Shown in pieces: positions 31,451-47,631 of a DNA stretch of 64,000 nucleotides. How positions within the stretch are numbered: position 1 is the stretch's first letter; each line of letters begins with the position of its first letter. The position numbers were made by a program, and so were the translations under genes. Source of the DNA: Prosthecobacter algae (GTDB lineage Bacteria > Verrucomicrobiota > Verrucomicrobiia > Verrucomicrobiales > Verrucomicrobiaceae). The stretch is from NCBI RefSeq assembly GCF_039542385.1, contig NZ_BAABIA010000002.1:124001-188000 (forward strand), read 5' to 3'. The notes under the pieces were generated by a model. It worked only from the letters and a program-made list of their open reading frames with translations, made no database searches and had not been told where the DNA came from.

Positions 31451-33856
31451 CTACGCCGCCCCGTGAACGATCATCCCACGGAAGGCGCTGCTGCTCATCA
31501 TCGGCTGCAGCAGGCTCATCGCCGCACGCAGCTTGGCAGAGTTTGCCACATTTGGGTTGTTCACCATCAGGACATCAGTGGCCAGAGGTGCGAGAGGTGC
31601 GACATCCGCAAAGTTTTTCAAGATCGCCCCCCCGTCCAGAATGATCCAGTCCACATGCTGCCGGGCCCGTTCAATCCAGGAGCGGTACCCATCCAGCAGT
31701 TCATTCGTGGCATAGGAGGGCAGATCGTGCGCAGGCAGCAAAAAGAGATTCGTCTTGCCATAGCGGAGAGACTCCAGGTCATGCGCCCAAGAACTGTGCT
31801 GGGTCGCGTGGGGGAACCATTGATGCAGCGTGGGCGAGACCGCATTGCACTCCATCATGAACACGCTGCGTCCCTGGTGGCAAAACGCCGCCGCCAGAGC
31901 CGCCGCAGACAGGGTCTTGCCCTCTCCAGCCTCAGCACTGGTGAGAAGGATGATGCCTCCCAGTCCGCTGCGTTTCAGCGCCTGCATTTCCAGGGTGGTG
32001 GTGAGCTGGGACAGCGCACCCGCAGCGCCATGGGGCTCTGAACGCAGCAACTGGCCCAGCATGGCCTCCGGAGTGCCGTGGCCGATCAGCGGCAGATGCG
32101 CCAGCACCGGAGCCTGATTGGCCGTGGTCCCTGCAAGCATGGACGGTGAACGGGCGGCGGGTTGGAAAACAGGAGCCGGGGGAGCTAGGGGCGAAGGCGC
32201 ATAAGGCAGCGTGCCTGGGGCGGCGGAGCCCGAGGTTCTGACGAGCGGCCCTGAAGGCATGTGCGGCACTTCCTTGACCGAGGGAATGTTGGCGGAAGGG
32301 GAACCCTTCTGCCTCAGGAGCCGGAAGACGTGGTCATCCATCAGTCCCCAGCCCACAGGCAGGCCGATAAAGATCAAACCAAAAACCATCAAACTCGCCA
32401 CAGCCGCAATGGGCTTGTTTGGCTTCACCGGCTTGTCGGGTGGAGAGGCGATGTCCGAAAGGCTGAGCGCACCGCTGTCCTTGAAATTGCCTGTCACTTC
32501 AGCCTGGTTCAGCCGCTTCACGATGGTCTGGTACATTTCGCGATCTGCCGCCACCTGATCGCTAAGCATCTTTTGCTCGACGTTTTTGCCGCTTTGGTCC
32601 AACACCTCACCACGTGAGGTTTCCAACTGCTTTTTGAAGTCTGCGATCTGCCGCTCCAGGCTCAAGACTTCGGTTTCGGACATCGTGACCACCGCCATCG
32701 AGGCATGATCCAGTGCGTTCTTGGCCGATTCGATCCGGCCCGCCAATGCAACCATCTGGGGATGCCTGCGCCCACACAGCGGTTCCAGCGCTTTGCGCTC
32801 CGTCATTGCTGACTCGAGTTCTTTGCGGTTAAAGGCCACATCCGGATTGTCTGCCACCACACGCACTTCCAAAAGATCCCGTCCTGCCTGTTGGGTGGTA
32901 CGGATGCTCTGCAGATCGCTCTTGGATTTCGCTAGTTGGATCTCCACATTCGTGATGGCCGTCATGAGCTGGCGCACCTTGTCACCATCCACATCCATCG
33001 CCTCGTTGGTCTGGATGAGGTTCTCGCTCTTGCGGTATTCGGAAAGCTTTCGTTCACTGACTTCCAGGCGCTGTTTCAGTTCATCGGCCTTGGTCTGAAG
33101 GTAGTCGCGCTCGCTCTGCGTCTGGCCGCTTTCCTGTTCGCCGAAAAAGCGGATGTAATCCTGGGCAAAACCATTCGCCAGATCCGCCGCCAGTTGGGGA
33201 TCCCGATTCCGCACCAGAATGCGCAGAATATGGGATTCCTTTTGCGGCTCCACCCGCACACTGCTCTCCACGCTTTCGGCAAAGACATCCATGGGCGGGG
33301 CAGGGTCCAGAGGAGTGTAAAGGCCCACCCATTTCAGCAACTGGTCTTTGCGCCCTAGGGTGCTCAGTTCATCCTGGATAAAAGCGTCCCTCTTCACTGG
33401 GTCAAAACGGGTGTAAAAGTAGTCCGCAAACTTCCGCGACTTGATCTCGGTCAGGTGGTTGTTGATGAGCTGAGGAGCACTCAGTTCCGTCACTCCTTGC
33501 CGCCCCATTTCATTGAAGTTAAAGACATTCGTGTCCTGCAGCCGCAGCCGCAGCTTCGCCTCCGACTCATAAATCTTCGCTCCCATGCCCAGGAGGTAAA
33601 AGACAGCCGCCGCCGCAGGCAGTGCCATGAGCAGACCTAACCACCAGCGTTTCTTCAGGTAACCTGCCAGGTCCGCCAAGCTGATCACCGACTCGCTAAA
33701 ATGAGGGGCAGGCGTCGAGAGATAAGGGCTGGAGTCCGCCGGGGACAGCCCCATGGGAACCCCGAGAGTCGCCGGTGCCATGGGAACAAGGCCCTGCCCG
33801 CCACCGGCAGCCCCTGGCTGGGTGCGGTTGGGATCAAGGGCGAGCTGGTAGGACAT
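31451..33856 (-). CDS. Wzz/GumC-type chain-length protein fused to a BY-kinase-like ATPase domain
   Basis: The 801-residue protein has a Wzz-like fold. A first membrane segment lies at about 71-92, a long coiled-coil periplasmic part at about 95-460 (including LQTKADELKQRLEVSERKLSEYRKSEN), and a second membrane segment near 482-505. The cytoplasmic ATPase domain (634-801) has Walker A SAEAGEGKTLSAAALA (640-655) and Walker B DWIILDGG. Walker A' reads MMECN, where an Asp is usual. There is no C-terminal Tyr cluster, and the protein ends GMIVHGAA. It probably controls polymer length or export but may not act as a standard tyrosine kinase. It is the last gene of the EPS operon. Confidence 0.88.
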   Translation of the reverse strand: MSYQLALDPNRTQPGAAGGGQGLVPMAPATLGVPMGLSPADSSPYLSTPAPHFSESVISLADLAGYLKKRWWLGLLMALPAAAAVFYLLGMGAKIYESEAKLRLRLQDTNVFNFNEMGRQGVTELSAPQLINNHLTEIKSRKFADYFYTRFDPVKRDAFIQDELSTLGRKDQLLKWVGLYTPLDPAPPMDVFAESVESSVRVEPQKESHILRILVRNRDPQLAADLANGFAQDYIRFFGEQESGQTQSERDYLQTKADELKQRLEVSERKLSEYRKSENLIQTNEAMDVDGDKVRQLMTAITNVEIQLAKSKSDLQSIRTTQQAGRDLLEVRVVADNPDVAFNRKELESAMTERKALEPLCGRRHPQMVALAGRIESAKNALDHASMAVVTMSETEVLSLERQIADFKKQLETSRGEVLDQSGKNVEQKMLSDQVAADREMYQTIVKRLNQAEVTGNFKDSGALSLSDIASPPDKPVKPNKPIAAVASLMVFGLIFIGLPVGWGLMDDHVFRLLRQKGSPSANIPSVKEVPHMPSGPLVRTSGSAAPGTLPYAPSPLAPPAPVFQPAARSPSMLAGTTANQAPVLAHLPLIGHGTPEAMLGQLLRSEPHGAAGALSQLTTTLEMQALKRSGLGGIILLTSAEAGEGKTLSAAALAAAFCHQGRSVFMMECNAVSPTLHQWFPHATQHSSWAHDLESLRYGKTNLFLLPAHDLPSYATNELLDGYRSWIERARQHVDWIILDGGAILKNFADVAPLAPLATDVLMVNNPNVANSAKLRAAMSLLQPMMSSSAFRGMIVHGAA

Positions 33857-33883
33857 GACGTGGGCGTGAAACTGGAAGTACCA

Positions 33884-35086
33884 TCATGCACCTGCCCCCA
33901 GGGGGCAAGGAGCAGACGCAGGGGTTTGGGAAGGTTTAGAGTCAGAATGTTCGATTTTCATGGCCTGGAGGATGATCCGGTTCACGATTTTGACATCGAA
34001 GACCTCCTCTGCCAGCTTTCGGCTGGCGAGTCCCATGCGGACAATTTGCTCTGGCTGCTGGATAAAAAACTCCATGGCCTTCACCACGGCCACCTCATCG
34101 CGAGGGGGCAGCAAAAAGCCATTTTCTCCGGACGGCACACACTCGCGGGCGCCGACCGAATCGGTCGTGATCATGGCCCGGCCAGTGGACAAAGCCTCCA
34201 GCGATGCATGAGGCACGCCTTCACGGTACCAGGTGGGCAGGCAAAAGACATGCATGCTTTTCAGCAACCCGGCCACATCCCGCACCATGCCGTGATGAAT
34301 CAAGGTCCCCTCCTTCACCCATTGCTCCACCTCTGCCTCAGAGACCCGGTTGGGGTTGGGATCAAAGGGACCGACGAGATGAAACTCCGCCAGGGGATAC
34401 TTGGCTTTGATCTTCCGTGCCGCCTCCGCAAATACGCAAACGCCTTTGCTGATGAGCAGCCGGCTCACCAGCACAAAACGGATGCGCCCGGCGGCGATGT
34501 CGGCATTTCCTTCCAGCGGCACATGGGGGTATTCATCCAGGTTCACTCCTGAACCTGCAGTGACGTGAACGGGCACTCCCGGCGGCAGCATCTTCAGATC
34601 GGTAAAAAGCTGCACATCGTCACGGTTCTGCATGAAAATAACATCCGCCCTTTTCAGGGCGAACCGGTGCAAAGCCTTGGAAACCCATTGCACCAGCGTC
34701 TGCTTCAGCGTTTCCGGTTTCACAAAGGTGAAGCCCAGCCCAGGCAGCAGGGCATAGACCTTGGGCACCCCTGCCAGCCGCGCCACCACACAGCCATAGA
34801 CCACCGACTTGATGGTGTAGGCAAAGAGCGCATCGGGCTTTTCCTTCCGAAACAGACGGAACATATCCAGCCAGGTGATCCAATCCTTGGCCAGATTCAC
34901 CCGGCTGCGCACCATGCGGATGGGCTCATGCCGCACACCGGCGGCCTCCAGGTACTTCCGCACATGCGGGTAGTCTTCAGCAGCAGAGGTCACCACTTCA
35001 CAACCATGGGCGGCGAAGTCGCGGATGAGATCTCCGCGATGGTAAACCAGGGTGTTGGCATCAGCCGTCAGGACGAGAACTTTCAT
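33884..35086 (-). CDS. Family 4 glycosyltransferase
   Basis: The ATG at 35086 starts a 400-residue product, MKVLVLTADANTLVYHRGDL, with a GT-B fold. The C-terminal donor-binding part includes FVLVSRLLISKGVCVFAEAA, EFHLVGPFD and HVFCLPTWYREGVPHASLEA, which holds the E-x7-E-like nucleotide-sugar site. These enzymes transfer sugars from nucleotide donors to lipid-linked glycans at the inner membrane. Its start overlaps the acyltransferase stop as ATGA. Donor and acceptor are unknown. Confidence 0.9.
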   Translation of the reverse strand: MKVLVLTADANTLVYHRGDLIRDFAAHGCEVVTSAAEDYPHVRKYLEAAGVRHEPIRMVRSRVNLAKDWITWLDMFRLFRKEKPDALFAYTIKSVVYGCVVARLAGVPKVYALLPGLGFTFVKPETLKQTLVQWVSKALHRFALKRADVIFMQNRDDVQLFTDLKMLPPGVPVHVTAGSGVNLDEYPHVPLEGNADIAAGRIRFVLVSRLLISKGVCVFAEAARKIKAKYPLAEFHLVGPFDPNPNRVSEAEVEQWVKEGTLIHHGMVRDVAGLLKSMHVFCLPTWYREGVPHASLEALSTGRAMITTDSVGARECVPSGENGFLLPPRDEVAVVKAMEFFIQQPEQIVRMGLASRKLAEEVFDVKIVNRIILQAMKIEHSDSKPSQTPASAPCPLGAGA

Positions 35087-36195
35087 GCAGAAATCGAAGA
35101 GGAGGAGGAACCGGGCAGCAGGCGCTTCAGGTGCCGGATAGAACGGAAGAGGGCGGCGCGCAGGCTCTCGGGCTGGTAGGCTTCCAGGTCGAGGACTTGG
35201 CGGGAGGTCTGCGACCACTCCTTTTTGTAACGGTAGGTTCCGGGCAGCATGTCAAACAAACGGAGGTTGCGGACCATGCAACATTCCACCGCCCAGCGGA
35301 TGCTGAGATGCCCCATGGAAAAACGCGCCAGGCGGGAGTGCCAGCCGAGCTGGAAAAACAGAAACTCGTCTCCCTCCACAAAACCATAGATGCCGCCGAC
35401 CATATCGCCACCGACCGCAAGAAAAGGCAGCATTGCACGGCCGCTGGGCAGCCACTTCTGGGCCAGCCTCCGGTGGAATCTCCAGGATTTGGGGGTGACA
35501 AAAGAGCTGACTCCATCGGGGTAATGCTGCCGGTGCAAGTCAGCAAATTCATCCAGCCGGGCCTCCATGTCTGCGGACGTCACCAGTTGCTCTTGAAAGT
35601 CGTTTTCCTGCTTCAGCAATTCGCGCCTGCGGCGGAGCTCCCGGCGATGTTTGCCAGGCAAGGCAGCTTCAAACTCCGTCCAGGATGAACTCAACCGAAT
35701 GCACTCGCATTGAGTCGCCTTCAGAATGCCTCCTCCCGTCGTGCATAAGTGTAGCGCCTGGACGATCCAAGGATAGTTAGGGGATTCCTCAGGCAGCTTG
35801 TTCAGCCGCACAGCCTGCCATTCCACGCCCAAAAGGTGGAAGACCTGACACAAAATGGGCGTCAGTTCCGGCTCACGGCCTGCGGGCACCAGAAAGTCCA
35901 GTCGCTCCCCCTTCACCTCGCCCAACCCACCCAGGAAACCCAGGTGCTGGAGATGACGACGCACCCCCTCCACCTCCGGTCCAATCATCAGCGGAGCAAT
36001 GGCCAAAGGTGCACCATGATCGTCACGCACGACGGTGATCGCGAGCGTAAAGCCTTCATGAAACTCTTCCCACCACAGGCTCACCCAGTCCCAGCGAAGG
36101 AACGGCGTGCGCACGGCGCTTTGCTCCAACAGGGCATCCCAGCAGGGTTCCAGGGCTTTGAAGCCAGCCTCGTCACGGATGATGTCCAGCTTCAC
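35083..36195 (-). CDS. CelD/BcsL-type GNAT acyltransferase
   Basis: The product of 370 residues begins MKLDIIRDEAGFKALEPCWD. It contains the CelD-like acyltransferase layout: FLRWDWVSLWWEEF, then FEAALPGKHRRELRRRRELL, and FFQLGWHSRLARFSMGHLSI near the C-terminus. The start is a GTG at 36195 and overlaps the previous stop as GTGA. Proteins of this family sit in polysaccharide clusters and probably acetylate or acylate glycan intermediates. The C-terminus ends in a serine-rich tail. Confidence 0.85.
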   Translation of the reverse strand: MKLDIIRDEAGFKALEPCWDALLEQSAVRTPFLRWDWVSLWWEEFHEGFTLAITVVRDDHGAPLAIAPLMIGPEVEGVRRHLQHLGFLGGLGEVKGERLDFLVPAGREPELTPILCQVFHLLGVEWQAVRLNKLPEESPNYPWIVQALHLCTTGGGILKATQCECIRLSSSWTEFEAALPGKHRRELRRRRELLKQENDFQEQLVTSADMEARLDEFADLHRQHYPDGVSSFVTPKSWRFHRRLAQKWLPSGRAMLPFLAVGGDMVGGIYGFVEGDEFLFFQLGWHSRLARFSMGHLSIRWAVECCMVRNLRLFDMLPGTYRYKKEWSQTSRQVLDLEAYQPESLRAALFRSIRHLKRLLPGSSSSSISA

Positions 36196-37910
36196 TGGCC
36201 ACCTCCTTTCGCCATGATCAGCTCCGCCAGTTTCAGGCGCGCCTCATAGAGCTTGCCCATGTCGTCATCCCAATCGCCAAAACCTCGGGCAAAGGTAGCC
36301 GCCAGATCCAGCGCCTCTTTTTCCAGCCCCAGATCCTTGGCCAGCATGAGGTAATCATAATCCTCTGCCATTTCCCGCAGCCATTTCAGGCGGATGCTGG
36401 CCACAGGCATGTGCGCCCCATTCCGCTTTTGCGTGGCCGGGTAGATGTAGCTGCCGTCACCATTGTAAACCCGGTCTTCCGTGTGGTGGAATGAGCCCGC
36501 ATCCGCCCACACATCCACACCCGGGCTGGCAAACAGCGTGTCCCAGTAGGTCAGTCCGGTGATGCCATGTCGGGGCATCACCCATGCCAGCACGCGGTGG
36601 TTCATCGCCGGGTAGTCCAGGCACCAAACGGGAGGATTCGATTCTTTAAGCTGCTGTGGTTTGCCATGCGCCGCCTCCCAGTCACCGGGCATTTGCACCA
36701 GCGCAGCATAGCACCACACCTCGTCCCCAGCCGTGATGCGGCGAGCGATGTCACGCTTGCCGTTAGGCGATTCCATATCCTCCCAGACTTGGGAGAAATG
36801 CGGCACCCAAATGTCCACATTGCCATCCAGCCGTCCCCACCACCAGTTGTCAGGTGCAGGCTGCTCCGTCACCAGCAAGGGCACCTTCAGCTGATGAGTG
36901 GCCTCCACCTCATTAAAAAAGTCTCCCCAGCGCCGCACCCGCGCATAGGCATCGGCGTCGTTCGGCTCATCCAGCGATCCCATGATGACGTAACCTCGCG
37001 ATTCGGCGCGTAGCTTTTTCATCAGCTTCATCCAATCCGCCACGTAGTTCATCGCTTCCTTCCGGTCTTTCTCCAAAGGATCAGCAAAGGGCCATTCCGG
37101 CCAGATGGGCAGCCCGAGCGTGCTCACATGCCGGTGCAGCAGGTGCTTGCGCATGCCCGCCTCCACCTTGGCATCATTGATCTTGCCCGTGGCTCCGTCC
37201 GGATAGGTCGGGTAAGTTTGGTCAATGCTCAGCCGATGCTGTGCCAGCAAATCGTAGTACTCATTCAGCAAAACCAGCAGTTCAGGCTCCGGTGGTTCTT
37301 TTTGGCGGTCAAAACCATGAACTTCGGCGATCCGGCGCCAAATGGTCATGATGGAGGTGCGTAGCCGCGGCACCACTGGCAAATCAAAAGGCAGCACCTT
37401 CACCGAGATCTGGCGCGTGGCCAAAAACAGACGGTCGGGTCCCAGCACACGTACCTCTCCTTTGTAAACACCAGGCGGTGTGGCATAGGGCACATGCACA
37501 TCCACCCAGTAAGGCTGATTGACGCTTTTCACCTCGGGCAGCTCCTGCCAGGCAAAGGTCTGCGGGACCAGCGCATCCGGGTATTCGCCAGCGGGCAGCG
37601 GTGACATCGGCGTGGACTTCGAAACCTTCACATAATGCTCACGCAGCAGCAGCGGGGCCGGGATTGTTTTGCCCTCTGGCCCTGTCAGGGTAGTGGCCTC
37701 CAGGGTGACCTTCCGCACCTCCTCGGGAGCTCCGTTCACCACCATTTGCAGAGCTTCCCATTCACCTCGGGCCGCCTGCAATTCCAGCTTCGTCACCAGA
37801 GGCAAGTCCTCCGTACGCGAAACGCGGGTCATCGCATCGGTGAGCGATACATTCAGTTCTCCATGCATCGCCGTGGCCAGCAGAGTGAGTCCGAAAACGA
37901 GGGCCTTCAT
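36192..37910 (-). CDS. DUF4091-type glycoside-hydrolase-like exported protein
   Basis: The 572-residue product has a short signal peptide (MKALVFGLTLLATAMHG). A beta-sandwich region (about 20-190) follows, then a catalytic-type domain with GYVIMGSLDEPNDADAYARV, VWCYAALVQMPGDWEA and HGITGLTYWDTLFASPGVDV, ending EDYDYLMLAKDLG. This matches DUF4091 proteins, whose fold resembles glycoside hydrolases. The Glu/Asp residues in the SLDEPND loop could be catalytic. It is embedded in the EPS operon (ATGA overlap upstream, GTGA overlap downstream), so it may trim or edit the polymer. Confidence 0.82.
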   Translation of the reverse strand: MKALVFGLTLLATAMHGELNVSLTDAMTRVSRTEDLPLVTKLELQAARGEWEALQMVVNGAPEEVRKVTLEATTLTGPEGKTIPAPLLLREHYVKVSKSTPMSPLPAGEYPDALVPQTFAWQELPEVKSVNQPYWVDVHVPYATPPGVYKGEVRVLGPDRLFLATRQISVKVLPFDLPVVPRLRTSIMTIWRRIAEVHGFDRQKEPPEPELLVLLNEYYDLLAQHRLSIDQTYPTYPDGATGKINDAKVEAGMRKHLLHRHVSTLGLPIWPEWPFADPLEKDRKEAMNYVADWMKLMKKLRAESRGYVIMGSLDEPNDADAYARVRRWGDFFNEVEATHQLKVPLLVTEQPAPDNWWWGRLDGNVDIWVPHFSQVWEDMESPNGKRDIARRITAGDEVWCYAALVQMPGDWEAAHGKPQQLKESNPPVWCLDYPAMNHRVLAWVMPRHGITGLTYWDTLFASPGVDVWADAGSFHHTEDRVYNGDGSYIYPATQKRNGAHMPVASIRLKWLREMAEDYDYLMLAKDLGLEKEALDLAATFARGFGDWDDDMGKLYEARLKLAELIMAKGGGQ

Positions 37911-39190
37911 ACGGCGAGCACCTCCTGGTAAACTTGTTCGTAACCTCGAGCTGCCACAGCGATGTCAAACCGTTGCACAGCATGACGACGCAGGCTTTCA
38001 GACGAAGGCGGATGGGCGAGGGTGTCTTCCCAAGCTTTGGCCAACGCCTCGGCCTCCTTCACCGGCACCACCTGGCCGACCCCTTCCAACAGACGGGAGC
38101 AGTCCCCGACATCGGTAGTGACGCAGGGCACACCACAGGACAGCGCCTCCATGATTGTCATCGGGCAGGCCTCTGTTCGCGATGCCAGTGAAAAGACATC
38201 CAGGGCAGGATAGGCTCGCTGGGGGTCTGGACGAAACGGGGTGAAATGCACCTGGCTGCGGATGGGTACCACCGAAAGAGAGGCCCGCGCACATTCATCC
38301 AGCTCCCACTCCTCTCCCCCGCATAACCAGAAGTGTGTCTCCGGATGGCGAGCCTGCAGGAGGGCTGCGGCCCGGAGCCAGGTGGACAGGTCCTTCATCT
38401 CATGGAAACGGCCAATGAAGCCAATCAGAGGAGCTCCCTCGGGCACTTTCAGTTCCTGCCGCACACGGGCCCGCGCCTGCGCATCAGGGACAAACCGCAT
38501 TGTATCAATGCCATTGGGCACCCAGGTCATGGCCGCTGCCGGATAACCCATCGGCACGTGATCTTCCAGCGCCGCTGATGAACAGGAGATGATGCGGACG
38601 GGAACCCAGCGGGAGGACCGCCCAATAAGTTTCTGGAAGACCGCCATCTTCAGATCCGAGTCCCCAGGGTTGCGATGGATTTCACGACAGTGAATGCCCC
38701 ACACCACGGCGCGGATCCCGGCCATACGGGCACACCAGCCGCCCACAAAATCGGCATGATGCATCCAGGTCTGCACCACGTCAGGTCGGATCTGACGCAG
38801 CAACTGGACGAGCCGAACCAAGGTGTCCCGACGCAAGAAAGCGGTTGCTTTGAGGTCATGCACTTCGGCTCCGGCATCTCTCAGCCGGGCCATGTCCTGC
38901 GGCCAGGCACGCCCATCCATGACGATCACCACCGTGCGCCATTGGCTGCGATCCATTCTGGCCACCAGATTTCCCAGCATGGCTTCCGCCCCGCCTCCAC
39001 CCGGGGCAGCGATGAAATGGACGAGAGTTTTCTGAACGGGCATGGTCTGACGGGCGGTGTGTTCACCCCTTTGACCCTCGGCAAGCAGCAAATGTTCCGC
39101 TTTCAACAAACTTGGTGCAGCCCAGGCCACAAGATGGCCGACCCACGCGGGTGGCCTACTCCAAGATGCAATCCAGGTTGGGACGTTCAT
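37907..39190 (-). CDS. Family 4 glycosyltransferase with N-terminal extension
   Basis: The core begins at an internal Met (39043), TLVHFIAAPGGGGAEAMLGN. It contains VLQTWMHHADF-like acceptor loops, LIGFIGRFHEMKDLSTWLRA and DVFSLASRTEACPMTIMEAL with the E-x7-E site. The ATG at 39190 overlaps the deacetylase stop as ATGA, which favours a 427-residue product with about 49 extra N-terminal residues (WIASWSRPPAWVGHLVAWAA). If real, the extension may be a membrane-associating segment. Otherwise the start is 39043. It acts in the same polymer pathway as its neighbours. Confidence 0.85.
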   Translation of the reverse strand: MNVPTWIASWSRPPAWVGHLVAWAAPSLLKAEHLLLAEGQRGEHTARQTMPVQKTLVHFIAAPGGGGAEAMLGNLVARMDRSQWRTVVIVMDGRAWPQDMARLRDAGAEVHDLKATAFLRRDTLVRLVQLLRQIRPDVVQTWMHHADFVGGWCARMAGIRAVVWGIHCREIHRNPGDSDLKMAVFQKLIGRSSRWVPVRIISCSSAALEDHVPMGYPAAAMTWVPNGIDTMRFVPDAQARARVRQELKVPEGAPLIGFIGRFHEMKDLSTWLRAAALLQARHPETHFWLCGGEEWELDECARASLSVVPIRSQVHFTPFRPDPQRAYPALDVFSLASRTEACPMTIMEALSCGVPCVTTDVGDCSRLLEGVGQVVPVKEAEALAKAWEDTLAHPPSSESLRRHAVQRFDIAVAARGYEQVYQEVLAV

Positions 39191-40179
39191 GCGCGCCCTC
39201 CTTTCCACTGGCGCACCAGTTCAAAAGCTCCTGAAACGGTGGCCTCAGTCTCCCAAACGGATTCAGGTGCCCCATAGCGAGGCAGATGCATGAAGGGCCC
39301 CGCAGCAGTGGCCCGCCCGCAGATCATCGTCCAGGCGGATTCAAAACCGGCTTCAGCGAGCAAAGACAAAGTCTCCGGCGTAAAGTCTCCAGGACCGCCG
39401 TTGGGAAAGGCAAAAGCACGTGGCGGCTGGCCCAGCTCCGCCAAAATGCGATCCCGGCAGGTGATGATTTCATGCCGCTGTTTTTCCACGGAACAACGGG
39501 CGAGGATGGGATGAGCATGCGTGTGGCCACCAAAATCGATGAGTCCACTGTCGCGCATTTCCCGCACCTGGTCCCAGGTCAGCGGACGCGTGACTTTCGG
39601 AGCTACAGGCAGCGTGACTCCCTTCAATAAGTTCTCCACCCGCAGGCGCATGGCTTCTTCAGGCAGAGTTTTCAGCTCAGCCAGCCATTCCCCCAGCGAA
39701 GCCGCTCCAGGCAGCGGGATCCCGGCGCACAGGGCCAGGTCCACCTGTTGAAACCACAAAGGGTCGGTACCATCCAGAAAACCGGTCGCCAAAAAGATGG
39801 TCGCGGGCAGGCCCAGCTCCCGCAGGATGGGGAATGCCAGCTCGTAGTTGGAGGCATACCCATCGTCAAAGCTCAAAGCCACCGCGCGAGGAGGCAGCCC
39901 CTCCCCCGCCCGCAGCCGACGGGCCATTTCAGCCAGAGGCATCACGTGATAACCTCTCGAAAGATGCTGGCAGACTCGGCGAAAGGTGGAAACGGGCAGA
40001 TGCAGGCTTTCATCTCGCACCCCCGCCGGTTCGCCATCGGCCCTCAGACCGTGAAAAGCCAGGACAGCCCCCTGTCCCGTGAGTTGACTACGGGCCACGG
40101 CGGCCATGCCGCACAGCACCAGCACTGCCGATTTGGCAGTCTGGCCAGCACGATTTAGGCTGGAAGGCAGGGGGAACAA
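39187..40179 (-). CDS. NodB-type polysaccharide deacetylase
   Basis: The 330-residue product contains the NodB motifs. ALSFDDGYASNYELAFPILR carries the catalytic Asp-Asp, GGHTHAHPILARCS the zinc-binding His pair, and AFAFPNGGPGDFTPETLSL the third motif. It removes acetyl groups from N- or O-acetylated sugars. It is the first gene of the EPS operon. An N-terminal hydrophobic stretch (SAVLVLCGMAAVA) may export or anchor it. Confidence 0.9.
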   Translation of the reverse strand: MFPLPSSLNRAGQTAKSAVLVLCGMAAVARSQLTGQGAVLAFHGLRADGEPAGVRDESLHLPVSTFRRVCQHLSRGYHVMPLAEMARRLRAGEGLPPRAVALSFDDGYASNYELAFPILRELGLPATIFLATGFLDGTDPLWFQQVDLALCAGIPLPGAASLGEWLAELKTLPEEAMRLRVENLLKGVTLPVAPKVTRPLTWDQVREMRDSGLIDFGGHTHAHPILARCSVEKQRHEIITCRDRILAELGQPPRAFAFPNGGPGDFTPETLSLLAEAGFESAWTMICGRATAAGPFMHLPRYGAPESVWETEATVSGAFELVRQWKGGRA

Positions 40180-40320
40180 TTTCTAATAATTTAGTAAAAT
40201 TATCAAAATTCAGCTAATAATCAACGGATTCTCACTATTTTCCTCCGGCAGCGGCAGTTGCCCCAGCAGACGCACGCATTCGTTCAGCAAGACATTACCT
40301 CACCATCCCGTCTTGCTCCG
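40180..40320. promoter_or_regulatory. AT-rich divergent promoter region
   Basis: This gap lies between the leftward EPS operon and the rightward fusion gene. The segment 40180-40240 is strongly AT-rich (TTTAGTAAAATTATC and similar) against GC-rich flanks, as expected for two divergent promoters. Clear -35/-10 pairs were not picked out. Confidence 0.5.
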
Positions 40321-42645
40321 ATGCCACTTTCGCTGGTGACCGAACTGAATGAACGCGACCGCCTGCTGCTACGGCGCTGCACGGAAGGGTTTTTGCCGAA
40401 GCGCATCTTCGACGTTCATACCCATCTTTTTCACACGCGGCACTTTGCCGAGGGCAAGGCACCGGTGTTTCTGGAACCTGGCCGGGGCTACGGTATGGCC
40501 GATTTCCAAGCGGCAATGAGCCGCTGGATGCCGGGCTGCGAGGTCGAGGGACTGTTTTTTGGCTATCCCAGCGCTGGCAATGACCGGGCCGGGGAGAACG
40601 CCTGGCTGCAGCAGGAGATCGGGCCCCTCGCGGCCACCTCTGCCAACCGCGCTCTGATGCTGGCCGCGCCAGGAGATGACCCGGCGGAGGTCCGCCGGCT
40701 GATCGAAACGAGCACCTTCATCGGCATCAAGCCCTATCGGCTCTATGCCGAGGTGGAAGATACGCGGGAGGCCCCTATCGAATCGTTTGCCCCGGAATGG
40801 ATGTGGGAGATCTGCCACCACCATCACGGCGTGCTGATGCTGCACATCATGCGTGCCGGAGGAATCACCGATCCGGACAATGTCGAAAGCATCCGCCGAC
40901 TCTGCCAGCGTTACCCCAAGTGTCGGCTGGTGCTGGCCCATGTGGCGCGTTCCTTCAACTATCGCCATGCCCGGGAAGGCCTGCATGTGCTGGCAGACCT
41001 GGACAATGTGGTGGTGGACACTTCTGCGGTGACACAAACAGGGGCCTTCCGTGCCGCCCTGGAGATCCTGGGACCTGGCAGGGTGCTGTGGGGCAGCGAC
41101 TACATGGTGAGCGAGCTCCGTGGTAGCTGCATCAGCCAGGGCGATGGCTTCACCTGGATCCATCCGGAGGAAGACGCCGCCAAAGGCCTCAACATTTTTG
41201 GCGGCTACACACTGGTGGGTATCGAGTCTCTGATGGCACTCCGCGAGGCCTGCGAAGACACCGGGATGAACACTGCGGACATCGAGGACATTTTCCGCAA
41301 CAACGCCCTGCGCCTGCTGGCACCTCACCTGCCCGAGACTGCGGCCATGCCTCCGCAAGCCCTGTGGGAGCATGCCCGGGCACACATTTCCTGCGGTACC
41401 GGCCTCATGTCCAAACGGGCGCAAAGTTTTGATCCCGTGAGTTGGCCCACCTACTTTCGCCAGGCCAGGGGCAGTCGCGTGACCGACCTGCATGGGCGTA
41501 GTTACCTGGACTTCACCGGCGGCGTGGGAGCCATTTTGTTAGGCTATGGAGACCCCGATGTGAATGCGGCGGTGAAACGACGCTTGTCGTTAGGCTCCTA
41601 CTGCACACTCAATGCCCCCGAGGAGGTGGAGCTCGCGGAAGCACTGCTGGATCTGCACCCCTGGGCTGGCAAGGTGCGTTATGCACGTGGTGGTGGGGAT
41701 GCACTCGCCCTCGGGGTGCGCATCGCCCGCGCAGCCACTGGGCGCAGCGGCATCGCCTTCTGTGGTTATCACGGCTGGCATGACTGGTATCTGGCCGCGA
41801 ACCTGGGGGATACCAGCGCCCTTGATGGCCATTTGATTCCTGGACTGCAACCACTCGGCGTGCCGAGGGAGCTGCGAGGCACCGCTACTCCCTTCCGTTA
41901 CAATGACTTGGCCTCGTTTGAAAAAGCTCTTGAGGCCCAAGGGGACAATCTGGCCGCCGTGGTGATGGAGCCCATGCGCAGCGAGGAACCGCGCGACGGT
42001 TTCCTGCAACGGGTGGCCGATGCCGTGCATGCCAGGGGTGGACTATTCATGGTGGATGAGGTGACCGCAGGCTGGCGCTTTGGCTTTCCAGGCGGCAGTG
42101 CGCGAGCGGGCGTGACACCCGACCTCGCCGTCTATGCCAAGGCCACCAGCAACGGCATCCCGTTTGGCGCCGTGATCGGTCAGGAAGCCGTCATGGATGC
42201 CGCCAATCCCAGCTTTATCTCCAGCAGCTACTGGACCGACGGCCTGGGAGCCGCCGCCGCGCTGGCCTGTGTGGGCAAAATGCGCCGGCTGCCTGTGCAG
42301 GCTCATGTGTGGTCTCTCGGCCAGCATTTGCAAAACCAACTGCGGCAGCTCGCGATGAAGCATCCTGGACTGGCCCTCAAAATCGGCGGCATGCCCTGCG
42401 CGCCGTCGCTGACCTTTGGCAACCCAGCCGCCAAGACGCTGATGATCCGCCGCATGCTGGCGCGAGGATTCATGATGTCATCCCAGCTCTACGTCATGTG
42501 GACGCATGACCAGGCGCAGGTGGACAAGATGCTGGCAGCCCTGGACGAAACCCTGGGCGAACTCACCCACCTAGCCCAGGAAAACCGGCTGGAGAACGAA
42601 GCCGGAACGGCTGCCCCTTCCGGCGGCTTTGCACGGCTCGCCTAA
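40321..42645 (+). CDS. Amidohydrolase-class III aminotransferase fusion
   Basis: The ATG at 40321 gives 774 residues; a TTG at 40258 is in frame. Residues about 20-345 form an amidohydrolase-2 TIM barrel: the HxH of IFDVHTHLFH (H33, H35), LMLHIMRAGG, LVLAHVARSFNY and VLWGSDYMVSE. Residues about 365-750 form a glutamate-1-semialdehyde-type aminotransferase: YLDFTGGVGAILLGYG, FCGYHGWHDWYLA, FMVDEVTAGWRFG and the PLP lysine K607 in VYAKATSNGIPFG. Both halves keep their catalytic residues and the frame is continuous. The protein may hydrolyse or decarboxylate a substrate and transaminate the product. It is followed by a symporter gene 17 bp on, which could import the substrate. Confidence 0.88.
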   Translation: MPLSLVTELNERDRLLLRRCTEGFLPKRIFDVHTHLFHTRHFAEGKAPVFLEPGRGYGMADFQAAMSRWMPGCEVEGLFFGYPSAGNDRAGENAWLQQEIGPLAATSANRALMLAAPGDDPAEVRRLIETSTFIGIKPYRLYAEVEDTREAPIESFAPEWMWEICHHHHGVLMLHIMRAGGITDPDNVESIRRLCQRYPKCRLVLAHVARSFNYRHAREGLHVLADLDNVVVDTSAVTQTGAFRAALEILGPGRVLWGSDYMVSELRGSCISQGDGFTWIHPEEDAAKGLNIFGGYTLVGIESLMALREACEDTGMNTADIEDIFRNNALRLLAPHLPETAAMPPQALWEHARAHISCGTGLMSKRAQSFDPVSWPTYFRQARGSRVTDLHGRSYLDFTGGVGAILLGYGDPDVNAAVKRRLSLGSYCTLNAPEEVELAEALLDLHPWAGKVRYARGGGDALALGVRIARAATGRSGIAFCGYHGWHDWYLAANLGDTSALDGHLIPGLQPLGVPRELRGTATPFRYNDLASFEKALEAQGDNLAAVVMEPMRSEEPRDGFLQRVADAVHARGGLFMVDEVTAGWRFGFPGGSARAGVTPDLAVYAKATSNGIPFGAVIGQEAVMDAANPSFISSSYWTDGLGAAAALACVGKMRRLPVQAHVWSLGQHLQNQLRQLAMKHPGLALKIGGMPCAPSLTFGNPAAKTLMIRRMLARGFMMSSQLYVMWTHDQAQVDKMLAALDETLGELTHLAQENRLENEAGTAAPSGGFARLA

Positions 42646-42662
42646 CTTTAATTGCAATATTC

Positions 42663-44159
42663 ATGAGCCATTTCACCTTGATTGATTACCTCCTCTTCGG
42701 CAGTTACCTGCTTGCTTCCGTCCTCATCGGCCTGCTCTTCGTGAAGGAGCAGCGGACCATGAAGGACTTTTTCCTCGCGGGGCGCAGCATGGGCAGCGTG
42801 GTGGTGGCCATCTCCGTCATGGCAGCCATGTTTTCCGGCATCAGCTACCTGGGTGGGCCCGCCGAGGTTTATGTAAACGGACTCGCCTTTGGCTGGGTGC
42901 TTTTCTCGTTCTTCATTGCCACCCCCATCACCACGATTTTCATCCTGCCCTTCTTCTATCGGGCGCGGTTCATCACGGCCTATCAATACCTGGAAGAGCG
43001 CTTTTCACTGCCTGCACGGCTGCTGGCTTCGGGCCTTTTTATCCTGCGGGTGCTGCTGTGGCTGGGTGCTGCCACCTATGCCCCTGCCCTCGCACTACAA
43101 CAGGCCACGGGCCTGTCCCTGGAATTTTCCATCCTGGCCACGGGCATCCTGACCACCCTTTACACCATGATGGGCGGCATGAAGGCCGTCATCTGGACGG
43201 ATGTGATGCAGTTCTGCGTGCTCTTTGGGGGGCAGATTGTGATCCTGCTGGTGGCCGTGGGTAAGATTCCCGGTGGCCTGAGTGAAGTCATTCATGTGGC
43301 CCAAACCCATGGCCAGCCCATGCCTTTGGCGAGTTGGGATCCCACGGTCCGGCTGACCTGGGCCAGCGTCATCCTCGGCGGGGCTGTTTTGAATCTGGTG
43401 CAGATGGCCACTGACCAGGTGGCGGTGCAGCGATACATGACAGCGAAGGATGTGAAGACCGCCCAGCGGGGACTGTGGTACAAGCTCATCGTCACCGTGC
43501 CGGTGCTGGGCCTCTTCTACGGCACCGGCTCCGTGCTACGGGCCTTTTACAACCACCATCCGGATCCGCTGGCAACGCACGCCATTGAAAAGGCGGATCA
43601 GATCCTGCCCTGGTTCGTCGTCCATGAACTGCCCCCCGGTCTGGCGGGCGTGCTCGTCGCCGCCATTTTTGCCGCCAGCATGTCCACCATCTCTGCCGGG
43701 CTGAATTCACTGGCTTCCGCCACCATGGTCGATTTCCAGCAGCGGCTGACGGACAAGCCTCTGCCTGACGATGAACGCCAGATCTTCCAGGCCCGCATGT
43801 GGACTCTTTTCTATGGAGTGCTGGTGGTCGCCCTCGCTTTCGTGGTCGGCCAGTTGGGAACGCTTGTCGAGGTGACCAACACGATCATCGGCCTCGTGGG
43901 CGGTCCTATTCTCGGCATGTTCCTGTGCGGCATCTTTATCGGACGCATCGGGCCAAAGGCGATTCTGATCGCCACGGTGCTTGGCTTTGCCGTGTCCTTG
44001 CTCGTCAAACTCAACACCGATATCTCCTTCGTCTGGATCACCTCCGTGGGTGCGGGTGTGACGATCCTCCTTTCCGGGGCCCTGAGTTTTATCTTGCCCG
44101 GGAGACCTGCCGTGGAGCTCGAAGGCCTGACCTGGCAGCAGCGAAACGACGACGCCTGA
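42663..44159 (+). CDS. Sodium:solute symporter (SSS family)
   Basis: The 498-residue product has about 13 hydrophobic segments. SSS-family blocks are RTMKDFFLAGRSMGSVVVAI, FSGISYLGGPAEVY, MATDQVAVQRYMTAKD and AAIFAASMSTISAGLNSLAS, the last containing the sodium-site Ser/Thr residues. These transporters take up sugars, organic acids, amino acids or sialic acids with Na+. It follows the fusion gene by 17 bp and is very likely co-transcribed, so it may import that enzyme's substrate. Confidence 0.92.
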   Translation: MSHFTLIDYLLFGSYLLASVLIGLLFVKEQRTMKDFFLAGRSMGSVVVAISVMAAMFSGISYLGGPAEVYVNGLAFGWVLFSFFIATPITTIFILPFFYRARFITAYQYLEERFSLPARLLASGLFILRVLLWLGAATYAPALALQQATGLSLEFSILATGILTTLYTMMGGMKAVIWTDVMQFCVLFGGQIVILLVAVGKIPGGLSEVIHVAQTHGQPMPLASWDPTVRLTWASVILGGAVLNLVQMATDQVAVQRYMTAKDVKTAQRGLWYKLIVTVPVLGLFYGTGSVLRAFYNHHPDPLATHAIEKADQILPWFVVHELPPGLAGVLVAAIFAASMSTISAGLNSLASATMVDFQQRLTDKPLPDDERQIFQARMWTLFYGVLVVALAFVVGQLGTLVEVTNTIIGLVGGPILGMFLCGIFIGRIGPKAILIATVLGFAVSLLVKLNTDISFVWITSVGAGVTILLSGALSFILPGRPAVELEGLTWQQRNDDA

Positions 44160-44221: not shown

Positions 44222-46333
44222 ATGAAAGCCCTTCACCTTGCCTTGTGCGCCCTGCTGCCCGCGTTCTGCGTCAGCGCCCAGACTGCCGCTCCGGACGGCA
44301 ATTCCAACTTCCGCCTCTGGCATGACAGCCAGGGCCGCACGGTGGAGGCAACCTTTCGCGGAATCGAAAACGGCAAGATCTACCTGCAAACCCGGGACGG
44401 CCGCATGTTTGATTTTCCCGTCGCCAATCTCACGCCCGAAGACCAGCAAGCCGCCGCCGTCTTGAAACCTGAGGGGTTGGGCATCCAGAAAAATACCGGG
44501 CTGGCCCAGGCCGCAGCGATCATCGACAAAGGCGTCCTCATGGGGCTGCAAAAAGCTGGCCAGCAACCCAATGCCCTGGCCAGTGACGAACAGTTTATCC
44601 GCCGGGTCTATCTGGACCTTGCCGGGCGCATCCCCACCCGAGCCGAGGCCCTGGCCTTCATCGCCGATCCCAGCGCGGCCAAGCGGGCCAATGTGATCGA
44701 CACCCTCGTCAACGACGACGGCTTTGCCTCCCACATGTTCAACTACTTCTCCGACATGCTGCGCGTGGCGGATGATGCGCAGAAGGCGAAGTTCTTCACC
44801 TACCAGGAATGGCTGAAGGAGCAGATCAACGCCAATCGTCCCTGGAACGAGATCGTCCATGACATGATGGTGGCTGACGGCAAGCTGCTCGACAACGGTG
44901 CCTCAGGCTACCTCCTACGCGACCGCGGCATGCGGCTCGACAACCTGAGCCTCACCCTCTCCACCTTCCTCGGCGCCAATGTCTCCTGCGCCCAATGCCA
45001 TGACCATCCCTTTGCCGACTGGACCCAGCGCCAGTTTTATGAAATGGCCGCCTTCTTTGGCGCTTCGGACACCTACAACCGCAACCTCCCCCGTGGCATG
45101 ATACGCGGCCTGAGGGATGAACTCACCCAGCAGCAGTTCCAGCAGGCACGGCGGCTCTTTGACGTGAATTCCCTGGCCATCCAGGACGGCAAGGAGAATG
45201 ACATGACGCTGCCCGACGACTACAAGTATGAGGACGGCAAACCCGGCGAAGCTGTGAAGCCGAAACTCGTCATGTGGGGCAAGGATGACCGCCGCCTACG
45301 TTGCTATCAGGATGCCGAACTGGCCCTAAAAAAGGCGGAGGATGACAGCCAGCTCCGCGAGGTCTTCGCCAAATGGATGACCAGCCCGGACAATCCACGC
45401 TTTGCCATGACCATCGCCAACCGACTTTGGAAACAGGTCTTTGGGGTGGGCATCAAAGAACCCGTCACCGATCTGGATGATCCCAGTGCCGCCAGCAATC
45501 CTCTGCTCCTCCAGCATCTCGGCAACGAAATGGTGCGGCTGAAGTTCGACATCCGTGCCTTCATGCGCCTGCTGTGCAACACGCAGACCTATCAGCGCGA
45601 GGCGGTGACCCGCGAGCTGGCCCTGGGAGAGCCTTATTACTTCCCCGGCCCCATCCTGCGCCGGATGACCGCCGAGCAGGCCTGGGACTCCTGCGTGACT
45701 TTGGCCATTGGCGACAAGGTGGACAATTTCAAACTGAAGCGTGCAGAACCCTATCGCCAAGTGATGGCGCTGAATGTCTCCGAAATCTCACCGGCCCAGA
45801 TCGTGGAAAAGCTGGCCGAGGTGCAAAGCATGCGCCGGATGGCCGATGGAGCCCTCGGCGGAGGTGGCAAAGGCGCTGCCAAAAAGAAAAATCGCCGCGC
45901 CCAGATGATGCAGCCTGCGACCGAAGATGAGGACGGCTTTACCCGCCCGACCATGATGGAGGGCCTGGCTCTGGCACGTGCATCTGAACTGCGGCAGCCG
46001 GAACGTGACGGCCATTTCCTGCGCATGTTTGGCCAGAGCGACCGCCAGATCTCCGACAGCAACACGGTGGAAGGAAGCATTCCTCAAGTGCTGATGCTGA
46101 TGAACGGCGAAGCCCAAAATGTGCTGCAAAATCCCCAGTCACTGGTGCTGGCAACGGCCATGGGTGAGGCGGAAACCGCGAAGAAGGTGGAGTCGCTCTA
46201 CAGCAGCTTTTTCTCCCGCAAGCCAACGTCCGATGAAATGGCTGCTGCCACGAAAGCCTTCGATTCGGGCCTCAGCTCCGCCGACCTCTGCTGGGTACTC
46301 TTCAATGCCCGCGAGTTTGTGTTCGTCCAGTAA
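44222..46333 (+). CDS. DUF1549/DUF1553 exported protein with N-terminal SHD1-like domain
   Basis: A GGAGG motif supports the ATG at 44222. The 703-residue product has a signal peptide (LCALLPAFCVSAQ). An SHD1-like small domain follows (about 28-75, FRLWHDSQGRTVEATFRGIE). DUF1549 follows (about 90-285, FIRRVYLDLAGRIPTRAEAL and NVSCAQCHDHPFADW with a CxxCH). DUF1553 covers about 355-690. It carries a Lys/Gly insert (GGGGKGAAKKKNRRAQ). In Planctomycetes and Verrucomicrobiota these proteins pair with a DUF1501 protein, as here. Their function is unknown. CxxCH suggests a possible haem, but many members lack cytochrome behaviour. Confidence 0.9.
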   Translation: MKALHLALCALLPAFCVSAQTAAPDGNSNFRLWHDSQGRTVEATFRGIENGKIYLQTRDGRMFDFPVANLTPEDQQAAAVLKPEGLGIQKNTGLAQAAAIIDKGVLMGLQKAGQQPNALASDEQFIRRVYLDLAGRIPTRAEALAFIADPSAAKRANVIDTLVNDDGFASHMFNYFSDMLRVADDAQKAKFFTYQEWLKEQINANRPWNEIVHDMMVADGKLLDNGASGYLLRDRGMRLDNLSLTLSTFLGANVSCAQCHDHPFADWTQRQFYEMAAFFGASDTYNRNLPRGMIRGLRDELTQQQFQQARRLFDVNSLAIQDGKENDMTLPDDYKYEDGKPGEAVKPKLVMWGKDDRRLRCYQDAELALKKAEDDSQLREVFAKWMTSPDNPRFAMTIANRLWKQVFGVGIKEPVTDLDDPSAASNPLLLQHLGNEMVRLKFDIRAFMRLLCNTQTYQREAVTRELALGEPYYFPGPILRRMTAEQAWDSCVTLAIGDKVDNFKLKRAEPYRQVMALNVSEISPAQIVEKLAEVQSMRRMADGALGGGGKGAAKKKNRRAQMMQPATEDEDGFTRPTMMEGLALARASELRQPERDGHFLRMFGQSDRQISDSNTVEGSIPQVLMLMNGEAQNVLQNPQSLVLATAMGEAETAKKVESLYSSFFSRKPTSDEMAAATKAFDSGLSSADLCWVLFNAREFVFVQ

Positions 46334-46350
46334 CCCGCCCTTCCGCCTCC

Positions 46351-47631
46351 ATGAACACCGCCCTCCGTTCTCTCGATTCCCTTTCCCGCCGCCAGTTTGC
46401 CGAGCATGTGGCCAAGGCCGCCCTCGGGGTTACCCTGCTGCCTCACGTTCTAAAGGGACAGGCGGCGGCCGATCCCAAATCGCTGCCCGGCTTTGGCAAA
46501 GCTAAGAATGTGATCTGGCTGCAAATGATCGGCGGCATGTCCCACATTGATACTCTGGACCCCAAGGTTGGCGATTCGAAAGGCCCCGGAGACCCGATCA
46601 CCACCAAGGCTGGATATCAGTTGGGAGGCTTCCTGCCAAAGCTCGCCAAAGACCATTCAGAAAAGCTGGCCATCATCCGCAGCATGACATCCAAAACGGG
46701 GGTCCATGCTTCAGGCCAATACCTGATGCGCACCGGCTATGAACAACGGGGCACCATCAAGCACCCGGTGCTGGGTGCCTGGGCGCAGGAACTGCTGGGC
46801 AAAAGCAGCCAGTCCCTGCCCTCCACGGTCTGCGTGGGCCGGGCCCCCGAAAGCGGCAACGGCTTTTTTTCTGCGGCTTTCAGCCCACTGCCGATTCACG
46901 ATCCGGAAGCCGGCCTACAATATGCAGAGTTTGGCGCACCCAAGGAGATCATCGACAAGCGTCTGGCCCTCCTCAACCAAGTGGATGCAGGCTTTCGCGC
47001 CAAGTTCCACGACACCAACCTCAAGGCCTACAGCGACTTTTATGATGACACGCTGAAGCTACTGAGCACGGATGACCTCAAAGCCTTCCGGTTGACCGAA
47101 GAGGACAACGCCGCCCGTGAGACCTATGGCATGAACAAGTTTGGCCAGGGCTGCATGCTGGCGCGGCGCCTGGTGGAGCGCGGTGTGCGTTTTGTCGAAG
47201 TCGCCCAGGGTGGCTGGGACATGCACAATGACATCGCCGATGGCATGGAGGAGAACGGCAACCTCTTGGATACTGCACTGGCAGCCCTGCTGGCAGACCT
47301 GCAATCACGCGGCCTTTTGGAAACCACCCTGGTGGTGCTGTGTTCGGAGTTTGGACGCACCCCCAAGATCAACAGCCGCAATGGGAGGGACCACCATCCC
47401 AAGGTCTTCAGCACCCTGCTGGCCGGAGGTCCGGCCAAAGGAGGCACCATCTACGGAGCCAGCGACAAGGAAGGCAATTCTCCCGCCGACAAGCAGGTGA
47501 CCATTCAGGACTTCCACAGTACTGTGGGTCACGCCATGGGGCTGGATGTGAATCAGATTGTGATGTCGCCCAGCAACCGACCTTTCACCGTGGGTGACAA
47601 GGGCACGGTCATCCCGGAAGTACTGGGATGA
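46351..47631 (+). CDS. DUF1501 family exported protein
   Basis: The 426-residue product has a Tat-like signal (SLSRRQFAEHVAKAALGVTL). The DUF1501 blocks follow: NVIWLQMIGGMSHIDTLDPK, FVEVAQGGWDMHNDIADGME, LCSEFGRTPKINSRNGRDHH and TIQDFHSTVGHAMGLD. DUF1501 has a sulfatase/alkaline-phosphatase-like fold. It follows its usual DUF1549/DUF1553 partner by 17 bp and overlaps the end of the convergent NsrR-like gene by 23 bp. Confidence 0.93.
   Translation: MNTALRSLDSLSRRQFAEHVAKAALGVTLLPHVLKGQAAADPKSLPGFGKAKNVIWLQMIGGMSHIDTLDPKVGDSKGPGDPITTKAGYQLGGFLPKLAKDHSEKLAIIRSMTSKTGVHASGQYLMRTGYEQRGTIKHPVLGAWAQELLGKSSQSLPSTVCVGRAPESGNGFFSAAFSPLPIHDPEAGLQYAEFGAPKEIIDKRLALLNQVDAGFRAKFHDTNLKAYSDFYDDTLKLLSTDDLKAFRLTEEDNAARETYGMNKFGQGCMLARRLVERGVRFVEVAQGGWDMHNDIADGMEENGNLLDTALAALLADLQSRGLLETTLVVLCSEFGRTPKINSRNGRDHHPKVFSTLLAGGPAKGGTIYGASDKEGNSPADKQVTIQDFHSTVGHAMGLDVNQIVMSPSNRPFTVGDKGTVIPEVLG

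Follow-up and report, generated by a model that had tools for sequence, protein, structure and literature searches.

What might a single protein do with both an amidohydrolase and an aminotransferase, and which compound could the two activities share? The question is raised by a gene of Prosthecobacter algae that lies in the 64,000-nucleotide stretch of DNA analysed here (contig NZ_BAABIA010000002.1, positions 124,001 to 188,000 of the forward strand), called the window below and numbered from its first letter. Positions 40321-42645 (+) of the window form one stop-free frame of 774 residues (open reading frame translation), in which Pfam recognises Amidohydro_2 (PF04909) at residues 31-333, with 62.2 bits against a cut-off of 26.4, and Aminotran_3 (PF00202) at residues 378-741, with 125.3 bits against 30.5. 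These two parts are referred to as AH and AT, respectively. An earlier note, made from the sequence by itself, had described this chain with Lys607 as its pyridoxal phosphate (PLP) lysine, and an SSS transporter gene 17 bp downstream. Frame, Pfam and alignment bear out the former, and scores above the SSF and TIGR00813 cut-offs the latter. The fusion is a real, conserved bifunctional protein family, both halves of which belong to known families. At a probability of roughly 0.4, it is a bifunctional enzyme that breaks down a nonulosonic-type (sialic/pseudaminic/legionaminic-like) amino sugar acid carrying an N-acyl group. This specific substrate hypothesis, which the earlier note missed, stems from the presence of the AT family in loci of the nonulosonic acid biosynthesis type. 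The features concerned are the following.

40321..42645, forward strand: fusion gene, amidohydrolase-2 (AH) plus class III aminotransferase (AT), 774 aa (Pfam; full length kept in relatives)
40411..41319, forward strand: AH domain, residues 31-333, with the metal-site-type residues H33, H35, K137, H175, H207 and D260 (Pfam PF04909)
41452..42543, forward strand: AT domain, residues 378-741, class III aminotransferase (Pfam PF00202)
42139..42141, forward strand: codon of the PLP lysine K607 (in AKATSNG), K in 62/62 ATs of the AH clade and 30/30 ATs of biosynthesis loci
42625..42639, forward strand: C-terminal GFxRL motif (G769, F770, R772, L773), common to standalone ATs of both settings described below
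42663..44159, forward strand: SSS-family sodium:solute symporter, 498 aa, 17 bp after the fusion stop (SSF, TIGR00813)

The fusion, its halves and its distribution

The ATG at 40321 is preferred as the start over a TTG at 40258, which would give a frame of 795 aa, because the N-termini of relatives align there. H33, H35, K137, H175, H207, D260 and K607 are invariant across 32 aligned sequences of more than 700 residues. An assembly error in the joining frame had been named in the earlier note as grounds for giving up the proposal. Full-length fusions, 42-73 % identical, are held by 43 of 141 other related genomes and also occur in other phyla, which rules out an assembly error as the source of the joining frame. 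Nothing was found in favour of an assembly or frame artefact that joins two genes, and this explanation was rejected as vanishingly improbable.

With the window's own genome included, 47 of 142 related genomes match the fusion at 1e-60, 44 of them with a full-length fusion and 3 with one cut by contig ends (a count of rows), and the full fusion is found in 9 of the 387 genomes of a phylum sample. It is full length in 11 of 294 Planctomycetota genomes and partial in one more, and it occurs in 2 of 345 Bacteroidota; the centre genomes of these two samples were picked because each carries a fusion. Among the named loci L111-L159, AH and AT share one frame in 43 of 49, some loci being cut by contig ends and L138 carrying a frame break. 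The fusion of L129 is not among these 43 and was found in a later six-frame table. The 49 loci were analysed out of 79, L081-L110 having been left out of the module table as apparent repeats of included genomes, judged by contig names and lengths. Brevifollis gellanilyticus, Agriterribacter humi and two species of Paenibacillus are among the carriers, and the closest AH relatives in named records (at least 70 %) are Verrucomicrobiota, including Brevifollis and several Prosthecobacter metagenome-assembled genomes (MAGs). A record titled Bosea sp. 12-68-7 MAG (L123) holds a truncated Prosthecobacter-like fusion together with a second amidohydrolase (AH2), an SDR and a symporter; this contig is possibly mis-binned or the result of a recent transfer. 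In Paenibacillus psychroresistens (L158, 9935-12118), AH is fused to a more divergent AT part (32 % identity), unlike most other fusions, and this part is possibly another aminotransferase lineage. The literature matches listed, judged from titles and abstract openings, include no description of an AH-AT fusion and no paper with both Pfam names. This agrees with the earlier note, whose author did not recognise the combination from a described pathway.

What the AH half does cannot be read from its fold. H33, H35, K137, H175, H207 and D260 are invariant in 42 AH sequences (the window's and 41 chosen by identity from 88), and with these metal-type residues and its Pfam score AH passes as an amidohydrolase-2; H33, H35, H175, H207 and D260 presumably have the metal-ligand roles of that family. 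The closest fold to the AH model (pLDDT 95.1) is 4dlf (Z 22.0, rmsd 3.2, 255 aligned), which we take to be L-fuconolactonase. LigI-type lactonases, decarboxylases and the LigJ hydratase lie within about 3 Z units of it, human ACMSD scores Z 19.3 and many rows are nearly tied. Because lactonases, decarboxylases and hydratases are so close to one another, the fold does not choose the reaction. Since sequence profiles are also weak (best 2e-5, 3cjp), naming a pathway from the amidohydrolase alone was dropped. AH has the fold and the HxH...H...H...D residues of the amidohydrolase-2 lactonases and decarboxylases (4dlf, LigI, ACMSD) but differs from them in that K137 and Y139 are invariant in the AH family and in that it scores far below the one named model reported, L-fucono-1,5-lactonase (NF052480, FuconLaconase; 17.5 bits, cut-off 400).

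The AT half scores above the class III aminotransferase cut-off, and K607 and D579, the latter presumably the pyridine-binding Asp of the PLP site, are present in 92 of 92 ATs compared. By sequence its closest solved relative is D-phenylglycine aminotransferase (2cy8, 6g1f; 7e-41). A structure search returns class III aminotransferases, with the same enzyme first in Foldseek at 29 % identity; it is remote from AT and unfused. AT aligns over most of its length with PRK06209/GSAM-like proteins (NF004856, TIGR00713; residues 348-746, 374-691) and retains the PLP lysine and the PLP-site Asp. It falls below the cut-offs of both equivalog models (TIGR00713, 158.8 of 527.3 bits; NF004856, 195.4 of 486 bits), and membership of the glutamate-1-semialdehyde aminomutase (GSAM) family was rejected on this ground. 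AT differs from GSAM-like proteins in having additional Trp and Arg residues and the C-terminal FxRL motif, and the S-G-T stretch of the own genome's GSAM-like paralogue is x-G-G in AT. The own genome has six matches to the AT family, just one of which is the fusion.

The downstream gene is a member of the SSS family (SSF, PF00474, 180.3 bits against 22.8; TIGR00813, 269 against 184) and scores below the cut-offs of all named models compared (equivalogs PanF, 95.9 of 328.05, and PutP, 95.6 of 515.5; subfamily ActP, 30.6 of 750). Its closest solved relatives are the multivitamin transporter, the monocarboxylate transporter SMCT1 and 5nv9, which we take to be a sialic acid transporter; the next symporter in the own genome is 30 % identical. 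Fusion and symporter are probably co-transcribed. A promoter scan found no sigma-70-like site, with 1.1 expected by chance. The pairing is not constant, as a symporter lies within 10 kb of the fusion in 20 of 81 fused loci.

One aminotransferase family in two genomic settings

The 142 loci left after deduplication, tabulated from six-frame open reading frames with neighbours within 10 kb, comprise 81 loci with the fusion, 8 with AH and AT adjacent, 4 with AH only, 18 with AT only and 31 with NeuB, SpsF or PseG, called biosynthesis-type loci here. The 142 loci are not a random sample: 41 came via the AH query and the others via the whole fusion or AT. Neighbour labels (NeuB, PseB, DegT, PseG, MlrC, DHDPS, RidA etc.) were assigned from representative sequences. 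They were checked by Pfam on L164 for SpsF and aldo-keto reductase (AKR), on L230 for RidA and the D-serine-dehydratase-like gene and by a separate search for NeuB; L008 carries the record labels pseB, pseC, pseG and pseI.

Of the 31 biosynthesis-type loci, 12 have AT and SpsF joined in one protein and another 11 have the two less than 200 bp apart; an AKR is found within 1 kb in 19. The fusions of an SpsF-type cytidylyltransferase to the AT family (L008 8263-10296, L169 7677-9704, L182, L204, L205, L219-L224 and L226) are candidates for a bifunctional enzyme that makes aminated CMP-sugars.

AH is absent from this setting. It stands beside standalone ATs in 8 of 26 non-biosynthesis loci versus 0 of 31 biosynthesis loci (p 0.0009), or in 6 of 24 versus 0 of 31 when two loci found via the AH query are removed (p 0.005); these and the other neighbour p-values ignore shared ancestry. 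The eight split pairs (L136, L157, L162, L168, L187, L191, L196, L198), six of them within 70 bp, are the separate neighbouring homologues of the halves that the earlier note had suggested looking for elsewhere. The remaining neighbours were compared between the 31 biosynthesis loci and the 107 other AT loci. HpcH is near 0 versus 23, an odd Gfo/Idh gene near 0 versus 19, AH2 near 0 versus 17 and SSS near 1 versus 24, as opposed to AKR, which is near 22 versus 8. For SDR, the difference (3 versus 27) is not significant (p 0.08).

In the active-site columns compared, the ATs of the two settings agree. K607, R456, G458, G459, W486, R553, S635, W638, T639 and the terminal FxRL are present in all or nearly all of 62 AH-clade and 30 biosynthesis ATs, and most of these columns differ in the own genome's GSAM-like paralogue. 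Only column 641 separates the two sets (thresholds >85 % and 75 %). L203 was left out of this comparison (hence 30 of 31 biosynthesis ATs), being classed by a NeuB-like neighbour alone and falling in the AH clade. The shared columns are the best sequence argument for related substrates in both settings, which they suggest and do not prove.

A tree of 117 ATs, made by a quick method with SH-aLRT as its only support measure, places 62 of 66 AH-linked ATs in a single supported group (77 rows, 98) surrounded by biosynthesis ATs, and L191, L136, L187 and L157 fall outside it. The tree used 58 of the 81 fused loci; the 23 omitted were near-duplicates of the window's genus or had an AT match of <330 residues. 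A single clade of the 66 AH-linked ATs versus the 31 biosynthesis ATs is rejected by 219 log units (p-AU 2e-70), and again without L203 by 171 log units (p-AU 5e-17). It is therefore likely that AH and AT were brought together, or separated, on more than one occasion, and this speaks for a functional link between the halves.

Pseudaminic acid, legionaminic acid and other bacterial nonulosonic acids cover flagella, capsules and lipopolysaccharide (LPS). In the KdnB/KdnA system of 8-amino-Kdo, a dehydrogenase and an aminotransferase put an amine in place of a sugar-acid hydroxyl, on another sugar and with another aminotransferase class than AT. For nonulosonic acids, related systems appear in the excerpts available of several papers. 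EpaA (CTP_transf_3 + Aldo_ket_red) and EpaB (adh_short_C2 SDR) of Acinetobacter prophages convert pseudaminic into 8-epipseudaminic acid (PMC12053666). The biosynthesis-type locus L164 has the Pfam pair of EpaA, CTP_transf_3 and Aldo_ket_red. In a comparison of domains rather than sequences, CTP_transf_3 is fused to AKR in EpaA and fused to or beside AT in the AT-family loci. An SpsF/aldo-keto fusion is also present in a Vibrionaceae pseudaminate-type cluster (PMC7371886), and in B. subtilis the final step of the CMP-legionaminic acid pathway is assigned to SpsF, a putative cytidylyltransferase (PMC7439481). A nonulosonic acid with an 8-amino group does exist in nature, in the bacterium Flexibacter maritimus (PMC3210612). 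The O-antigen locus of Legionella serogroup 6, which comprises CapD, DegT, an aryl-alcohol-dehydrogenase-like gene, acetyltransferases, a cytidylyltransferase, a GSA aminomutase and PseG (PMC3694923), resembles the biosynthesis-type AT loci in its gene list, the level at which it was compared, with the gene annotated as GSA aminomutase in the place of AT. On the strength of these papers on EpaA/EpaB, SpsF, the 8-amino sugar and the Legionella locus, AT would, by analogy, aminate a side-chain ketone of a nonulosonate in the biosynthesis loci. The excerpts available of PMC3438082 and PMC13317340 contain no glutamate-semialdehyde-type aminotransferase for the terms searched. A search of a phage collection for EpaA/EpaB-like genes (queries: one AKR per setting, one SDR) gave only matches of <60 % identity, the best at 21-38 %.

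A possible breakdown route and competing explanations

Breakdown of an amino nonulosonate-like acid by the fusion would proceed as follows. A monocarboxylate-type SSS symporter would import the acid, AH would hydrolyse the N-acyl group off the side-chain amine, and AT would pass the bared amine to PLP and from there to a keto acid, so that a ketone remains. The AT step would be the reverse of the amination proposed for its family in the biosynthesis loci. An SDR and/or an AKR could then reduce the ketone, and an HpcH/HpaI (or DHDPS/NAL-type) aldolase could cleave the 2-keto-3-deoxy acid, which would yield pyruvate and a shorter sugar. HpcH/HpaI-type aldolases cleave 2-keto-3-deoxy-4-hydroxy acids, and nonulosonates are such acids. 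Substrate, direction of AT, deacylation by AH and channelling are what we infer; the tie of the fusion to amino nonulosonic acids is specific but unproven.

A catabolic route had already been proposed in the earlier note, and the neighbourhoods speak for it in part. In 44 of 93 AH loci an HpcH/HpaI aldolase, an SDR, AH2 or a symporter lies within 10 kb, with aldolases near 19. In several relatives of the window's genus, AH2 (Amidohydro_2) and an SDR come after the fusion; next is a symporter, divergent and with 54-57 % identity to that of the window, beyond which lie a NANM-like kelch gene, a further SDR, an HpcH/HpaI aldolase and Gfo/Idh genes. In the own genome these parts are dispersed: an AH2+SDR pair (L217) is 78 % and 70 % identical to that of L055, and an HpcH+SDR pair (L230, also with RidA- and D-serine-dehydratase-like genes) is 83 % and 79 % identical to genes in the relatives' fusion loci. 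DHDPS/NAL-like genes, the only ones looked for among known sialic acid catabolism (NanA, NanK, NanE), are near 2 of 142 loci.

Several points weigh against this route. The other 49 of the 93 AH loci, some on short contigs, have no HpcH, SDR, AH2 or SSS within 10 kb. Among the 81 fused loci HpcH is near 16, SDR near 15, AH2 near 16 and AKR near only 3, and the window itself shows the symporter only. The HpcH of L161 is closest to HpaI and GarL (below the cut-offs shown), which act on short diacids, and we know of no N-deacylase among the closest folds of the AH model. Shared ancestry by itself could preserve the common AT columns, and the 8-position for the amine is a guess. Since an SDR lies near so few biosynthesis loci, the EpaA/EpaB parallel comes down to SpsF and AKR. 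In addition, the LPS sugar of the Legionella serogroups concerned is a 5-acetamidino-7-acetamido nonulosonate without an 8-amino group, according to a reference title in PMC3210612. Last, the own genome has NeuB, so that a biosynthetic or salvage role is possible.

In such a role the fusion would edit the cell's own amino nonulosonate by deacylation and transamination, and the symporter would import or recycle the sugar. The AT family context is in keeping with this, as are the glycosyltransferase/polysaccharide cluster that adjoins the fusion in the window and the NeuB of the own genome (L232, contig C6), whose neighbours are NeuA-, PseG- and small amidohydrolase-like genes (these three by eye). 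We consider it improbable, given the absence of AH from all biosynthesis-type AT loci, the aldolases near AH loci, and the L232 NeuB stretch, which has no match to SpsF, AKR or AT representatives at 1e-10. The catabolism of an oxidised sugar that is not a nonulosonate is a better-placed though still doubtful explanation. Here, AH would serve as a lactonase, hydratase or decarboxylase after an SDR, HpcH/HpaI would cleave a 2-keto-3-deoxy acid, and AT would turn a small aldehyde or keto product into an amino acid or take the amine off a hexosaminic acid. The fold neighbours of AH are such lactonases, decarboxylases and hydratases, in L124, L143, L157 and L158 the gene just upstream of AH is an SDR, and the SDR of L161 is closest to gluconate 5-dehydrogenase, as its HpcH is to HpaI/GarL, none reaching the cut-offs shown. 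This leaves unexplained the fusion to SpsF, and the position beside NeuB/PseG, of ATs that belong to one family with those of the AH loci and agree with them in the columns compared. AH and AT might also share a pathway and not an intermediate, the fusion only fixing their stoichiometry around a separate step. In two of the split loci, L136 and L157, AH and AT are indeed separated by other genes, and a two-domain model of the whole fusion (pTM 0.55) leaves the relative placing of the domains poorly determined; yet the halves are within 70 bp of each other in six split loci and their direct fusion persists across several phyla, and we see little likelihood in this explanation.

Nonulosonate catabolism by the fusion can be extended to a broader claim, which we regard as unlikely as it stands. 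Verrucomicrobiota, Planctomycetota, a few Bacteroidota and Paenibacillus would share an undescribed pathway that breaks down aminated bacterial nonulosonic acids in a stepwise mirror image of their biosynthesis, with the deacylase-transaminase fusion at its core. Its AT half would be of the same family as the enzyme that adds the side-chain amine in surface-sugar loci, often fused to the CMP-activating enzyme. We know of no description of how bacteria degrade pseudaminic, legionaminic or similar nonulosonic acids, and none is evident among the literature matches listed (titles and abstract openings). A family that links nonulosonate-biosynthesis-type ATs to an amidohydrolase and aldolases would offer a testable entry to such a pathway and, possibly, tools for stripping or editing these sugars. 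It would also give a function to a class III aminotransferase whose closest database model is named glutamate-1-semialdehyde aminomutase.

Further genes around the fusion and its relatives

Divergent from the fusion, positions 31451-40179 (-) of the window hold the surface-polysaccharide-type cluster, with glycosyltransferases, a GNAT-type acyltransferase, a polysaccharide deacetylase and a GH123-N-like gene; its 801-aa protein at 31451-33856 (-) has no Pfam match at 1e-5. Directly 3' of the symporter, PSCyt2/PSD1 and DUF1501 genes (44222-47631) show no evident link to the fusion. Elsewhere, an unusual Gfo/Idh/MocA-type protein with the motif NGHPYSWSA accompanies aldolase/SDR/AH loci (L161 7333-8301, L162 9785-10774, L173 14007-14969); in L161 its Pfam match is restricted to residues 67-147 (36.7 bits).

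Four loci have AH without an AT of this family. In two of them, L124 and L130, a different class III aminotransferase with 29 % identity to the AT of the window stands beside MlrC-, RidA- and D-serine-dehydratase-like genes. A second class III aminotransferase of the own genome (L073, 7554-10460) adjoins an MlrC-like gene, as in L124 and L130. Judging from their sequences, the aminotransferase and MlrC-like gene of these three loci, joined in L124 and L130 by the RidA- and D-serine-dehydratase-like genes and AH, may represent a different, recurrent D-amino-acid-like module.

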